From Bacteroidales bacterium (lineage in GTDB: Bacteria > Bacteroidota > Bacteroidia > Bacteroidales > JAIOZK01), in NCBI GenBank assembly GCA_021740625.1, contig JAIOZK010000037.1:1-34281 (forward strand): a stretch of 34,281 nucleotides of DNA. Reading direction: 5' to 3'. Positions 12,961 through 20,861 of the stretch are shown here, in pieces. The position numbers and the translations under genes are program-made. Position 1 is the stretch's first letter; every line of letters begins with the position of its first letter. The notes under the pieces were generated by a model. That model had not been told where the DNA came from and searched no databases. It worked only from the letters and a program-made list of their open reading frames with translations.

Positions 12961-13108
12961 TTTATCAATTAGTGTTTATATGGGTAGCAAGCAGGCATGG
13001 TCAGTACATGTTTCACCAGCCCCAGTATTGATTTTTGGGGAGGATAACAGCAGGATATTACCGGTTTATTATTGATAGCCTCCGGTACCCCCTCCCCCAA
13101 CAACAAAC

Positions 13109-13165
13109 AGAATGTCATTCCGACTGGAGCAGACGAGCGATAGCGAGGCTGTGAAAGGAGGAATC
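13109..13165. repeat. dispersed-type repeat interrupting a broken gene
   Basis: The segment GAATGTCATTCCGACTGGAG ... GGAGGAATCTCC has the layout of a common Bacteroidota intergenic repeat (GTCATTCCGAC...GGAATCT). A related piece, AATGACAGG...GAGGAATCTC, lies at about 15961-15990 in the other intergenic gap. It coincides with the point where the recognisable part of the adjacent gene remnant ends. Confidence 0.4.
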
Positions 13166-13411
13166 TCCTGGCATATAGCAGCCCCTCTATTTGAACTTCT
13201 GGTGTATATATTACGGATGTGTTCACTCAAGACCTGTTCCAATACTCCATCGGGGAAACCAAGAAAAACAACCTCCTTATCCAATATTTTAAAGAACTTT
13301 TTCTTCACATTATATTGCCTGATATTTTTAACAAAGACAAAAGCCGAATACTCGTAAGCACGCCAGAATATTCCCTCTTTGTGAAGATAAATACGGCTGG
13401 TAAATTGTCAA
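13160..13411 (-). pseudogene. truncated, frame-disrupted small ORF resembling a DGR accessory gene
   Basis: Immediately after the stop codon of the FISUMP gene (13412), one frame reads RIYLHKEGIFWRAYEYSAF, then a basic stretch, then DKEVVFLGFPDGVLEQVL. This looks like a real conserved small protein. The start is broken: TTG ACA ATT TAC at 13411-13400 is in a different frame, and deleting one C of the CC at about 13399-13400 would join it to the rest. The similarity-like part stops near 13195, and the open frame then runs through the dispersed repeat at 13109-13165. I recall short proteins with a RAYE-x-SA ... F-x-GFP pattern beside variable FISUMP genes in Bacteroidota DGR loci, but cannot verify this. 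Treated as a gene remnant. Confidence 0.5.
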
Positions 13412-13588
13412 TCAGTCCTTGAGGCAGCGCACGGAAAAGCCGGCGTCCTTATTGTCGATGCCCCGGTCCACGTCGTCGCTACCGTAGCCCATGTACCGGC
13501 TCCACGCGTTCGAACTGCTACCCTCCGTGGACGTCCACCAGTCGCCATAGCAGCCCAGGCTGGTGACCAAACCATTGGCGCTGCGGTA
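13412..13588 (-). other. candidate DGR variable region (VR) at the 3' end of the FISUMP gene
   Basis: From TAC-CGC at 13588 to the stop, most residues that vary in FISUMP targets use NNC codons: AGC, GCC, GTC, ACC, TGC, GGC, GAC, TAC, ATC. All are one or two changes from AAC. This is the expected outcome of adenine-specific mutagenesis of a template rich in AAC codons. The segment is visibly more GC-rich than the surrounding DNA, and its invariant end (GGCTTTTCCGTGCGCTGC) would suit an initiation-of-homing site. No template repeat was found in the window. Confidence 0.55.
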
Positions 13589-14209
13589 CCCACCCGGCAG
13601 GGCAGTGAAGCCACTGCTATTGGTTGCTCCAGTATTGGGTGAATTCCAATGAGCGGTTCCGGCTTCTTTCATTTTTCCTCCTGCAACACCTGAACCACCG
13701 AGATAACCAATTACTATGTCACTCATCATCACTCGGTAAATGCCACCCGGTAGGACAAGCGCCCAGCGCAGTTGACCAATCATACAATCTACCGTAGGTA
13801 TCGCAATTGGAAGAATTGTTATTGTAGCACCAGCTATTGCCGGTTTCGTAGTTGAGGTTTTCGGTTTTGTCGTAATCCCAGCCGGTATCCCAGCTTCCGT
13901 TGCCATCAAAATCCCATCGTACCTGTAATTGGCTTGTTGGGTCTTCGTTGTCGTAGCTGTCTGAGCCGTCAAACTCAAAAGTTGTAGAGGTAGAGCCGAA
14001 GGTTCATCTTCATCATCACTGCAAGCAGAAGCATCAAATTCAAATTGGGTTGATGTTGTTCCTATTGAAGGTGTAATGGTGAATGAGGCTTTGGGTGCTG
14101 TGTTTTGCGTATCATTGCTATCCTCATCTTTTTTACATGAGTTAACTGTTAAGACTGTTGCCGTGGCCAGCAGAACAGCCAATAATGAAAATAAAATCCT
14201 GGATTTCAT
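13412..14209 (-). CDS. FISUMP-domain lipoprotein with PKD-like repeats; DGR-type variable protein; middle section out of frame
   Basis: The frame encodes 265 residues. The N-terminus is a lipoprotein signal with a cysteine at residue 25 (TVNSC-KKDED), followed by the start of a PKD-like unit (ASFTITPSIGTTSTQFEFDA). The C-terminus is a FISUMP (Fibrobacter succinogenes major paralogue) domain: AHWNSPNTGATNSSGFTALP, then WWTSTEGSSSNAWSRYMGYG, ending GFSVRCLKD. Between about 14002 and 13720 the meaningful reading lies in another frame (FEFDGSDSYDNEDPTSQLQV, WCYNNNSSNCDTYGRLYDWS, CPTGWHLPSDDE). That frame hits a stop at a spot where one missing G would restore the continuation. So two disruptions cancel and the frame stays open by chance. 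The protein is probably non-functional in the middle, unless these are sequencing errors. FISUMP domains are frequent targets of diversity-generating retroelements. Confidence 0.72.
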   Translation of the reverse strand: MKSRILFSLLAVLLATATVLTVNSCKKDEDSNDTQNTAPKASFTITPSIGTTSTQFEFDASACSDDEDEPSALPLQLLSLTAQTATTTKTQQANYRYDGILMATEAGIPAGITTKPKTSTTKPAIAGATITILPIAIPTVDCMIGQLRWALVLPGGIYRVMMSDIVIGYLGGSGVAGGKMKEAGTAHWNSPNTGATNSSGFTALPGGYRSANGLVTSLGCYGDWWTSTEGSSSNAWSRYMGYGSDDVDRGIDNKDAGFSVRCLKD

Positions 14210-14317
14210 AATTATTTTGGCTTTTGGTTATTCTACATTTTGAAAAAGCTTTGTATCTGAATGAAATGAAGAAAAAGTAAAAAAATTTGGGAAATGCTTA
14301 TCAATCGCAAGGCTGCA

Positions 14318-15517
14318 TTAGTCCAAAAATTCATTAACTGTAATCACCTTACATTTTATACCAGGGTAAAGGGATTCAATTGAATTAAATGATCGTGGTA
14401 CTTTTGTATCGCTCCATTTCACTTCAATAGCTTCCAAATCATCCTGTCCCTGAACAATAAAATCAATTTCTGTTTTGTTTATGGTCCTCCAAAAGTTGAT
14501 CTTATTTATCGAATAATAATCATTTGATAAAATTTCTGTTAAAACAAAATTCTCAAACAGGCTGCCTTTATCCGACCTGACATTCAAACTATTAAAATTA
14601 TTTAGAATAAAGTTTCGCAAACCCAGGTCCAAAAAGTAAATCTTTGGTGTTTTGGTAATCTCCTTTTTGTAGTTTTTATGGAATGGATAAATTCTTGTAC
14701 AAATAAAAGTTTGTTCAAGAATGCTTAAATATTCTTCTACGGTTTTTCTTGTTGTTTTCAAGGATTTTGCAATAGATTCGATACTTAAGAGATCCCCTGT
14801 TTGCATCGCTATGCGAATCAATAATTTGTTATATACATCTACATCTTTCAAGGCTAAAAAATCAACCAGGTCCTTTTGAACATATGCCTGATAAATATCT
14901 TTAATCCTAAGCTGTTTATCAACAATATTGTTTTCTTTTGCGACAGCAGGGTATGAGCCATATAACAAAATATTTTCAAGCACTTCATTTCTTGTAATTG
15001 GAGCAGCAAAATCAATGTATTCATCAAATGTCAACCGGTTTATTGTAAAAATACGTGTCCGGCCAACCAAATGCTCTTTGGTTTTTGCTTTTATCTCCAA
15101 TTGAGATGAACCACTGTAAATTACTTTAATATTTCGCTTTAGATCATATACCTCCTTCAGAAATAAGCCAGGAGATTCAAGCCTTTGTATTTCATCTACG
15201 AAAACATACTTTCTTTCTTCACTTTTACCTAAAAATTCAATAAACCGGGGTAAGTTGTTGAACAATGAATGTAATTTCAGGTCATCCAGGTTGAAATAAA
15301 AAATATCGCTTGAGGAAATCCCAGTTTGCAAAAGATGCTTAATTAACAACATCAGCAAAGAGCTTTTTCCAACTTGCCTGCTCCCCAATAATCCTAAAAA
15401 AAGATCGTTTTCCAAATTCTTTTTAAGAATATCAAGTATTTCCCTTTTTTTAAGATTGAAATCGAAATCAGGTTTTTCCCTCCAGGGATTTTGCAGAAAA
15501 AATATCTCTCGTATCAT
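14318..15517 (-). CDS. AAA ATPase of the DUF4143 family
   Basis: About 399 residues. The N-terminal AAA_14-type P-loop ATPase has Walker A GSRQVGKSS and Walker B KYVFVDEIQ, and a sensor-like YSGSSQLEI. The central winged-helix-like part (SIESIAKSLKTTRKTVEEYL) and the C-terminal DUF4143 domain with a PD-(D/E)XK-like EIDFIV...EAIEVKW complete the family architecture. Such proteins are common accessory genes in Bacteroidota; no role is firmly known, and toxin-antitoxin, defence and regulatory roles have been suggested. The frame is open from a TTG at 15541, but ATG 15517 is preferred. Two similar 14-bp palindromes lie just upstream, hinting at autoregulation. The neighbourhood is repeat-rich, in line with horizontal mobility. 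Confidence 0.88.
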   Translation of the reverse strand: MIREIFFLQNPWREKPDFDFNLKKREILDILKKNLENDLFLGLLGSRQVGKSSLLMLLIKHLLQTGISSSDIFYFNLDDLKLHSLFNNLPRFIEFLGKSEERKYVFVDEIQRLESPGLFLKEVYDLKRNIKVIYSGSSQLEIKAKTKEHLVGRTRIFTINRLTFDEYIDFAAPITRNEVLENILLYGSYPAVAKENNIVDKQLRIKDIYQAYVQKDLVDFLALKDVDVYNKLLIRIAMQTGDLLSIESIAKSLKTTRKTVEEYLSILEQTFICTRIYPFHKNYKKEITKTPKIYFLDLGLRNFILNNFNSLNVRSDKGSLFENFVLTEILSNDYYSINKINFWRTINKTEIDFIVQGQDDLEAIEVKWSDTKVPRSFNSIESLYPGIKCKVITVNEFLD

Positions 15518-15564
15518 TTTATCCAGATAAATTTTAATCAAATATACAAAATTATCTAGATAAT
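15518..15564 (-). promoter_or_regulatory. twin palindromes and TAnnTTTG boxes upstream of the DUF4143 ATPase
   Basis: ATTATCTAGATAAT (15551-15564) is a perfect 14-bp palindrome, and TTTATCCAGATAAA (15518-15531, plus strand) is a near copy. Their centres are 33 bp apart, about three helical turns. On the minus strand TAATTTTG (15554-15547) and TATATTTG (15546-15539) lie between them and fit the Bacteroidota -7 box. The proximal palindrome abuts the ATG. This suggests an operator, possibly for a dimeric repressor, which could be the ATPase itself. Confidence 0.4.
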
Positions 15565-17999: not shown

Positions 18000-20861
18000 A
18001 TGATTCAAATGCAATATACTTTAATCAGCAAAACAATGAGATACAGCCTGCTTTTCTTCCTTTTCATGAGTTTTTTGATCACAACCCACAAAACGCGGGC
18101 ACAGGAACAAAAGGAAGATTATAATTCTGTAGTTGCCATGGCCAATGATTATTTTGATGATAAGGATTACATCAATGCCAAGGCCGCCTATCAGTATGCC
18201 TCCCGCTTGAACCCGGAGGCTGAATTTGCCAAAGCCAGGTTAAACCAAACCATTGAATTGCTCCGCCAGCAGCTTGCAAAAAGCGGAACCTATACCGAGT
18301 ATGTTTCACAGGCCGACGAATACATGGCACAACAGGAGTATGATAAAGCCATTGAAGCATTCAAAAAAGCCCAGGAGATCATTCCCGATATCAAGTATCC
18401 TGCTGAAAAGATCAGAGACATTAAAAAACTTCAGGTTGAATTTAAAGAACGAACTGCTGAATACAACAGAACCCTCGCCAAAGCAAATAAACTGATGGAA
18501 GAGAAGAATTTTGCCGAAGCCAGGACAGCATTTGAGGAAGCAGCAGAAATATTTCCATCCAAAAGCTATCCACAGGAAAAGATAGAAGAGATCGATAACA
18601 TAATGTATCAGCTCGAACAGGCTGAAAATGGCTATAACATGGCCATGTCGAATGCCCGCTTTTTTATGAAGAAAGGCAAGCTCAGGGAAGCCCTGGAAGA
18701 ATATAAAAATGCCAATTCTTTCAAACCCGGTGAAAAAGAACCCGTAGAAAAAATTGCGGGACTGCAAGATAAAATCGCTGAGTCAGAACAGTTCAGCGCC
18801 CATGTTGAAGAGGCCGACCGCCTTTACATCGTTAAAGATTACAGGGGTGCCAGAGAACAATATGCCCAGGCACAGAAGATCAAGCCCAATGATAACTATC
18901 TGAAGGAAATGATGCTGAAGATCGAACGTGCACTTGAAGACAAAAACACAAGCATCGAACAGGATTATACAAATGCCATTACCCGTGGTGATGAATTTCT
19001 TAACAACAAGGATTTGAAGCTTGCCAAAACCCAGTTTGAATATGCCGCCCGCCTGAAACCAGGCGAAAGCCTGCCAAATCAAAAACTGGAAGAGGTAAAC
19101 AGCTTGCTTGCCGAGTATCAAAACAAAATTGAAACAGCAGACCAGAAGCTGGAAAACGGAGATTTTGAAGAAGCCAAAAGCAATTATATGTCAGCTTTGC
19201 AAATTTTACCGGCCGAGAGCTATCCGAAAGAACAACTTGAAGAAGTAAATATATACCTTGCCCGTGAATCCCGGAAAGATGAAATTGATTCGGCTTATGC
19301 CGAGATCATTGCCATGGCCGACCAGATGTTCGTAAACAATCGCTTTGCTGAGGCAAAGATAAAATACAAAGAAGCCCTGGATGTGAAGCCGGGAGAAACG
19401 TATCCCAAAGCAAAGATCGATGAAGTGGAAGAAACCATGGCCAGCCTCTACCAGGAAAAAGCAGCCCGTGAGAATTACAGCAACCTGATCAGCATGGCGG
19501 ATCAGTTATTTGAAAATGAGGAATTTGAATCCGCGCAACAGAAATATGAAGAGGCTGCCAAGGTATTGCCTGAAGAAGAATATCCCGGACACAGGATTGA
19601 AGAGATTGAGCAGATCACTGCTGATATGGCAGCCTATAAAAACAAACGGAAAAAATATAAATCTTATGTTGAAACGGCAGATGAATTGTTCGAAACAGAA
19701 GAGCTGAAACAATCAAAAATAAATTACCAGGAAGCTCTGGGTCTTTTCCCGGGTGAGTCTTATCCCCAATCCAGGATAGCCGAGATAGATACGATATTTG
19801 CAGAAATCCAGCGGCAGAAAGAAATCGACTCCACCTACCATGATGCACTGGCAAAGGGAGATCAATTCATGGAGGAGGAAAAATACAAAGCAGCTAAGCA
19901 AGCCTTCCTGGAAGCCAAACAACTGAAGCCCGATGCTGATGCACCATCGGAAAAACTAAAAAAGGTTGAAGCTGTCTTGCTTGAAATTGAACAGCAGCGG
20001 CAACTTGAAGCAAAATATGAAGCACTGGTACAAAAAGGCGACAGCCTGATCGAGGCCAACGAATACCCGACTGCCAAAGTCGCATTCGAAGAAGCACTGG
20101 CCATAAAGACAGAAGCCGAATACCCCAGGCAACAATTGATCGAAGTTGAAAGAGAACTGAAAAAGATAGAAGAAGAAAGGCAGCAGGCTTATGACCGTGC
20201 CATATCAAAAGGGGACAATGCTTTCCAGCAGGAAGATTATTACCAGGCCAAAGAAGCTTACCAGGCTGCCAGTAAATTGTACCCGAAGAATGAATATCCC
20301 ATCAACCAGATTGATAAGTGCAACTCTTACATCGCTGAGATTGAAAAAGCGACCGAAAGGGAATACAATCAATCCATTGCCAATGGGGATAAGTTTTACA
20401 ATTCAAAAATATACGACAGGGCACTGGATGCATTCTACAGGGCTTCTGAACTCAGGCCAAAAGCAACTTACCCCAGCGAAATGATCGATAAGATCACCAA
20501 CATCCTCAGCAAGAACATCCTGGTTGAGATTGATTCCGCCGCGGATACCATCCTGAGCAACAAAATGAAAAAATACAAATTTGAGCCTATTGGCGTGCAG
20601 GACAGAAAAGACAACTATGTGATCATCACAGCCAAAAATCTGAGCCAGGAAGAATTCAAAGTGATCATGAGCTATGGATCAAAAGGAGCAAAGAACGGAG
20701 GCATGCTGGTGCGGGTACCGGCTTCTGAAACAGAAAAAGAACTGATCATCCGCTTTGGCACCCAGTACAAATGGTTCAGCGAAGACAATGATTGGATCAG
20801 CATCGTGCCTGAAGGCGGAAAGTTGCAGGTTTCCAATATCAAAATTGTAAAGGCTGAATAA
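18000..20861 (+). CDS. exported protein with about 14 TPR-like repeats of ~58 residues and a C-terminal beta domain
   Basis: A 953-residue protein. The start at 18000 gives a signal peptide after a short polar head (about residues 13-35, RYSLLFFLFMSFLITT); ATG 18036 is an alternative. From residue about 40 to 845 there are 14 consecutive repeats of 55-62 residues. Each has the pattern Y-x4-AD/GD-x-F-x4-Y-x2-AK-x2-Y-x2-A-x4-P-x3-YP-x3-I-x-EI, with two TPR-like helices and a third coiled helix. The last ~100 residues lack repeats and contain beta-rich text (NYVIITAKNLSQEEFKVIMS...SNIKIVKAE). No lipobox or T9SS signal is seen, so a periplasmic location is likely. It follows the LolD-like ATPase by 30 nt. 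The family is not recognised by name; a long periplasmic scaffold is a reasonable inference. Confidence 0.85.
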   Translation: MIQMQYTLISKTMRYSLLFFLFMSFLITTHKTRAQEQKEDYNSVVAMANDYFDDKDYINAKAAYQYASRLNPEAEFAKARLNQTIELLRQQLAKSGTYTEYVSQADEYMAQQEYDKAIEAFKKAQEIIPDIKYPAEKIRDIKKLQVEFKERTAEYNRTLAKANKLMEEKNFAEARTAFEEAAEIFPSKSYPQEKIEEIDNIMYQLEQAENGYNMAMSNARFFMKKGKLREALEEYKNANSFKPGEKEPVEKIAGLQDKIAESEQFSAHVEEADRLYIVKDYRGAREQYAQAQKIKPNDNYLKEMMLKIERALEDKNTSIEQDYTNAITRGDEFLNNKDLKLAKTQFEYAARLKPGESLPNQKLEEVNSLLAEYQNKIETADQKLENGDFEEAKSNYMSALQILPAESYPKEQLEEVNIYLARESRKDEIDSAYAEIIAMADQMFVNNRFAEAKIKYKEALDVKPGETYPKAKIDEVEETMASLYQEKAARENYSNLISMADQLFENEEFESAQQKYEEAAKVLPEEEYPGHRIEEIEQITADMAAYKNKRKKYKSYVETADELFETEELKQSKINYQEALGLFPGESYPQSRIAEIDTIFAEIQRQKEIDSTYHDALAKGDQFMEEEKYKAAKQAFLEAKQLKPDADAPSEKLKKVEAVLLEIEQQRQLEAKYEALVQKGDSLIEANEYPTAKVAFEEALAIKTEAEYPRQQLIEVERELKKIEEERQQAYDRAISKGDNAFQQEDYYQAKEAYQAASKLYPKNEYPINQIDKCNSYIAEIEKATEREYNQSIANGDKFYNSKIYDRALDAFYRASELRPKATYPSEMIDKITNILSKNILVEIDSAADTILSNKMKKYKFEPIGVQDRKDNYVIITAKNLSQEEFKVIMSYGSKGAKNGGMLVRVPASETEKELIIRFGTQYKWFSEDNDWISIVPEGGKLQVSNIKIVKAE

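Follow-up and report, generated by a model that had tools for sequence, protein, structure and literature searches.

A probable orphaned variable region of a diversity-generating retroelement in an apparently broken FISUMP gene of a Bacteroidales bacterium

Introduction

Target genes of diversity-generating retroelements (DGRs) can persist in genomes that lack the element itself. In the available part of a study of Treponema denticola, isolates without core DGRs are described as keeping left-over target genes (PMC4891356). One domain known as a DGR target is Fib_succ_major, which the accessible text of a report on human microbiomes places at the end of predicted lipoproteins, with nine such proteins in its Table 2 (PMC4159848). 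We refer to this domain as FISUMP; searches pairing "diversity-generating retroelement" with "FISUMP" returned no paper, the domain being present in the literature as Fib_succ_major. A further report states, in the portion available, that its own approach would not detect remote targets (PMC8144416). A GC-rich hairpin shortly 3′ of the variable region (VR) is known from phage DGRs, according to the excerpted text of PMC3240598.

Here we analyze the 3′ end of a FISUMP gene in a window of 34,281 nucleotides (JAIOZK010000037.1, assembly GCA_021740625.1), which is the entire contig C14 of a Bacteroidales genome assembled to 4.0 Mb in 52 contigs, with an estimated completeness of 95%. The gene appears to be a broken DGR target, and its tail is very probably a variable region that has been orphaned. 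Contigs of this genome are given below by number alone, and those of other genomes with the genome (G) number; G001 is the only genome of the same genus that was found.

Table 1. Features of the FISUMP gene, in window coordinates
Feature	Position	Strand	Basis or remark
Invariant GC-rich tail	13412..13441	-	sequence
Stretch with 22 template-type codons	13442..13588	-	22/22 end in C/T
Variable region (VR)	13412..13609	-	full-length alignment with template repeats of G001, G047, G375, G081 and others
FISUMP C-terminal half 5′ of the VR	13610..13720	-	FISUMP subtype differs from preceding piece
PKD-like domain (named by eye) and FISUMP N-terminal half	13722..13997	-	tblastn pieces 13997-13848, 13865-13722
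5′ end with lipoprotein-like signal (read by eye)	14132..14227	-	90% identity with contig C82 of G001
Mosaic FISUMP open reading frame, probably a pseudogene	13412..14209	-	265 aa

Results

Codon structure of the tail

An initial annotation of the window had proposed a DGR variable region here on account of NNC-type codons at variable positions, with 13588, now seen to be the first template-type codon, as its upper limit. To keep the window out of the definition, we took the template columns from related genomes: across 11 of their FISUMP template repeats (TRs), 22 of 66 alignment columns hold AAC or AAT in at least 70% of the repeats. Six of these TRs (G001, G047, G209, G375, G081, and G732) have a reverse transcriptase (RT) gene nearby on the same contig, and the other five were assigned from their Asn-rich translation alone. 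In the window, the codons at these columns are TAC, AGC, GCC, AAT, ACC, AGC, TGC, TAT, GAC, GGT, AAC, AGC, TAC, GGC, GGT, AGC, GAC, GGC, ATC, GAC, AAT, and GCC. Asn is replaced at 19 of the 22, and every codon ends in C or T (17 NNC and 5 NNT), as against 23 of 43 codons elsewhere in the tail (Fisher p = 3.4e-5), which bears out the proposed codon pattern.

An ordinary FISUMP paralogue might show the same endings through amino-acid choice (Asn, Asp, Tyr, Ser, and Gly) combined with GC-rich loop codons, and indeed several of the residues permit only NNC or NNT and the tail is GC-rich throughout. Among amino acids whose codons are free to end in a purine, however, the C/T ending is found in 12 of 12 template codons and in 15 of 28 others (p = 0.003), and G is a frequent ending among the conserved codons of this tail. 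Seven ordinary FISUMP tails of the genome (the FISUMP gene of C13 left out) have C or T at only 8–17 of 20–22 of the same columns, none of the seven significantly, with the highest count, 17/22, on C51. Such an origin for the tail is therefore very improbable.

The C/T excess reaches p < 0.05 in 18 of 20 other DGR-matched or DGR-like tails, the exceptions being those of G001 C81 (16/22, p = 0.37) and G084 (18/22, p = 0.23); the former fits the TR of G001 well despite its nonsignificant excess. When third positions of the template codons are compared in a 21-column alignment, purine/pyrimidine differences between the window and ten related tails number 0–4 of 21, and those in ten pairs of ordinary paralogues of the genome 6–13 of 21.

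The stretch had also been described as more GC-rich than its surroundings. This part stands, with a GC content of 0.64–0.65 in 120-base windows at 13440–13619 compared with 0.27–0.53 in windows that do not overlap 13380–13679. The high GC does not come from the randomized codons, since in the 21-column alignment the variable codons have a GC content of 0.59 and the other codons 0.67.

Variation among relatives and templates of other genomes

Over nontemplate codons, four gene copies in G048 come nearest to the window tail (76–77% identity). At template codons, polymorphism among these copies affects 12, 10, and 1 of the 22 first, second, and third positions, compared with 0, 2, and 3 of 43 elsewhere; over first and second positions together, the counts are 22/44 and 2/86 (p = 9e-11). 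The excess variation anticipated at these codons in homologues is thus seen among these four copies. The only RT in G048 is a 122-aa fragment of a DGR RT (locus L204, on C507) beside ORFs that look transposase-like by eye. A decaying DGR RT is also found on G047 C101 (L076), without the LPIGNLTSQ block and with the catalytic middle missing.

Compared with its three nearest TRs, none of them cognate, the window tail differs at 35/64 adenines and 35/134 other bases (G375), 42/73 and 33/125 (G081), and 40/70 and 34/128 (G047), that is, at 54.7–57.5% of adenines and 26% of other bases (p from 1e-5 to 9e-5). The local VR of G001 gives similar values against noncognate TRs, with 52–58% of adenines and 25–26% of other bases changed relative to those of G375 and G081. 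That VR belongs to a complete DGR (C25, locus L061), which holds in a row a FISUMP target, bAvd (PF22296), TR, and RT (PF00078), and it is changed relative to its own TR at 31/69 adenines and 1/126 other bases.

Three further tails of the window's own genome can be matched to known templates. The tail on C47 differs from the TR of G001 at 34/69 adenines and 9/126 other bases, and for two tails on C19 (C19a and C19b) the comparison is with the TR of G047, a genome of another family, and gives 32/70 adenines and 17/128 others and 37/70 and 19/125, respectively. Together with the DGR of G001, these differences, concentrated at adenines, show that DGRs have written FISUMP tails in this lineage. 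Among ordinary tails of the genome, the one on C18 has a weak adenine bias (p = 0.009) and three others tested have none. The two C19 genes lie in tandem (C19:6608–9425, L074) and are 75–76% identical over ≈1.2 kb to a DGR-local target of G047. We considered this pair as a decayed cassette and rejected the idea, as there is no Avd or RT in C19:1–15000; at the sequence level, a C19 FISUMP piece had no match among solved structures.

The template columns of other genomes, the three sister tails, the G001 DGR, and the variation in G048 all agree with the proposal of a DGR variable region, and we strongly infer that a DGR wrote the window tail. The tail lies at the 3′ end of its gene and, judged from sequence, would belong to a family with a ligand-binding fold that is known as a DGR target, a role of FISUMP domains put forward in the initial annotation and corroborated by G001, by other genomes, and by the available text of PMC4159848.

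The end of the variable region

The invariant segment at the very end of the VR sits where an initiation-of-mutagenic-homing site would be expected. The 80 nt 3′ of the window VR contain no GC-rich hairpin. Such a hairpin follows 4 of 19 other target tails, among them the local VR of G001 (7-bp stem, GGTA loop), and is missing from the local targets of G047 and G375, whose loci look complete, so its absence is weak evidence. An Omnitrophica MAG, of another phylum (MHGQ01000023.1, L133), also has a FISUMP tail in which NNC codons are numerous; this tail shares with the end of the window VR more than 30 identical bases around the stop codon.

Mosaic structure of the gene

The initial annotation called this a FISUMP lipoprotein gene; the present analysis indicates that it is not an intact one. 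The PF09603 match in the ORF covers residues 173–264 and, in frame, only profile positions 100–187; a whole FISUMP domain in one frame is not present in it, as the N-terminal half is in another frame. That half, together with the PKD-like piece, encodes a protein 94% identical to the DGR target of G001, in a frame that differs from those of the gene start and the tail. At the nucleotide level, 13848–14002 is 88% identical to G001 C81 and 13720–13864 is 91% identical to the DGR target of G001. Matches to G001 C25, G001 C74, C47, and G014 all end at 13720, and those to G084, G048, and G074 continue across it at about 69–70%. The gene thus has two out-of-frame joints. The ORF stays open throughout the out-of-frame piece, and translation could yield a protein whose middle is scrambled; as read from the sequence, however, the gene is probably broken and likely a pseudogene.

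These joints could instead reflect misassembly of two FISUMP genes, with the tail being a good VR of an intact gene. FISUMP is multicopy, with 12 loci in this genome, and the joint falls within a conserved stretch. Against this, the joint is out of frame, and one made at an exact shared repeat would, we reason, usually keep the frame; moreover, of the loci compared, the genome's closest other copy of the upstream piece shows only 83% identity. We consider misassembly unlikely.

The FISUMP gene adjoins an AAA_14/DUF4143 gene (14318–15541). A copy of the latter on G001 C9 is 86% identical, and the 10 kb around that copy contain no match to the window FISUMP gene; a second DUF4143 gene, 30% identical, adjoins the DGR of G001. 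On the other side, at 13078–13184, lies a dispersed repeat of ≈100 bp, of which G001 has at least a dozen copies. Its DGR locus contains four of them, including one that separates TR from RT and one just after the RT, and further copies occur near FISUMP genes on G001 C81 and C74. The window also encodes two DUF4842 proteins (PF16130; 997–2895 and 26410–28719), the second with Big_9/cadherin-like repeats.

Searches for a template and a reverse transcriptase

As a query for the cognate template, we used a predicted one, made from the window VR by setting template-type codons to AAC, with a few neighboring codons guessed. With two candidates scored per genome, no cognate TR was found in the order (25 of 393 genomes matched), in the class (5 of 395), or among relatives of G048 (24 of 392, mostly genomes of the order search). 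Phage and plasmid records gave no match to the predicted template, and an ungapped scan of the collected loci yielded no cognate TR, its best place having 14 mismatches at 63 non-A positions. DNA patterns of the tail produced 0 and 1 matches in viral contigs, the one not FISUMP, and 28 in genome contigs, where the FISUMP-like matches are without an A-rich, TR-like form; a TR pattern produced one match in viral contigs, again not FISUMP. In the window's own genome, 23 places resemble the TR pattern. The two closest were read and neither is FISUMP, and the other 21 have three mismatches; in its exact form, this pattern recovers 7 of 10 known TR loci. The expectation of a template matching the tail except at adenines was therefore not borne out in anything searched.

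A viral origin was also considered and rejected: 25 viral contigs have FISUMP relatives, and the stretches of them examined contain no Avd or RT. From 235 viral RT relatives, 80 were retained, and one of these (L278) carries, judged by motif, a TR of the FISUMP type.

The window itself has no RT, Avd, or FISUMP TR, in agreement with the initial annotation. In the assembly, RVT_1 had no match at E ≤ 0.001, nor did a 7-row DGR RT model at E ≤ 1, searches in which G001 was positive both times; no Avd was found in the window or in ten other loci of the genome, and all 104 contig ends lack any piece of RT or Avd. Neither an RT nor an A-biased near-repeat was thus found in the 95%-complete assembly, an outcome that had been named in advance as speaking against a DGR target.

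The same incompleteness could mean that the tail is a live remote target, with its DGR and cognate TR in DNA missing from the assembly and its frame lesions being assembly errors or tolerated. Homologues of the two genes left of the G001 DGR (MOSC/MoaB-like, 84.5%, and HD, 82%) lie on C30 and stop 186 bp before its right end, with an ORF that starts at 19329 being cut off there by the contig end. The ancestral DGR site may therefore fall in an assembly gap, and the absence of the DGR may be only apparent. C47 also fits the TR of G001 about as closely as the remote targets of G001 do. On the right side, however, synteny is lost: PfkA and its neighbor, which lie right of the G001 DGR, are found near the end of C24 and are not followed by PriA. 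The lack of any RT piece, at contig ends or elsewhere, and to a small degree that of the hairpin, also count against a live target. Finally, the TR of G001 differs from the window tail at 34/126 non-A bases, and thus a G001-type DGR in an assembly gap would not serve this tail. On balance, we judge a live target to be distinctly unlikely.

Of the two fates offered by the initial annotation, a remote or an abandoned target, the second fits better, given the broken gene and the lack of a cognate TR and of an RT in the assembly. The orphan state follows from these absences and from the rebuilding of the gene with two out-of-frame joints, and the VR would now be inactive.

Discussion

Our data suggest the following history for an orphaned variable region. 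The error-prone RT of a DGR would have copied a TR rich in AAC and AAT codons, placing random bases at template adenines, and the mutated copy would have replaced the end of the gene (its last 198 bp) by mutagenic retrohoming. The expected outcome is a ligand-binding domain whose surface-loop positions carry NNC and NNT codons. Later, the template would have been lost and FISUMP genes may have recombined to give the present mosaic.

More speculatively, FISUMP tails might be exchangeable cassettes: several unrelated DGRs would pass through these bacteria, each with its own template, and leave written tails behind, and recombination in the conserved FISUMP core would join heads to tails, the window gene being one such joint. 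In this scheme, the VR-like tails of the genome would trace to at least three template lineages. We think it improbable that the scheme holds as a whole. That VR-like tails of three template lineages occur in a genome where no DGR is seen suggests that bacteria of this group often gain and lose DGRs. The window tail also illustrates that a DGR-written tail can be recognized from codon structure alone, using template columns from relatives, without its own template or RT. Surveys that start from the RT miss such orphan genes, as the available text of PMC8144416 implies.

The DGR of G001 has in common with the window gene a FISUMP target, a C-terminal VR, and the template columns. It differs in having an intact target and in the presence of bAvd, TR, and RT, and its TR is not the template of the window tail. 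The targets in the accessible text of PMC4159848 share the Fib_succ_major domain with the window gene; they were reported alongside DGR systems, whereas the window tail is an orphan.

An orphaned VR in a broken target is of a kind already described for T. denticola, to judge from the available part of that study (PMC4891356). There, as in the window's genome, VR-bearing genes occur where no RT or TR is found, most differences between their VRs and other genomes' TRs fall at adenines, and many targets are lipoproteins, as the N terminus read by eye suggests here. A remote VR of one T. denticola isolate fits the TR type of another isolate better than its own, and a similar situation is seen here. 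The differences lie in the FISUMP domain and in the mosaic gene with its frame lesions, both particular to the present case as far as that text goes. In T. denticola, sister isolates within a single species supply the cognate TR, whereas here a matching TR from other genomes is known for C47, C19a, and C19b and not for the window tail.
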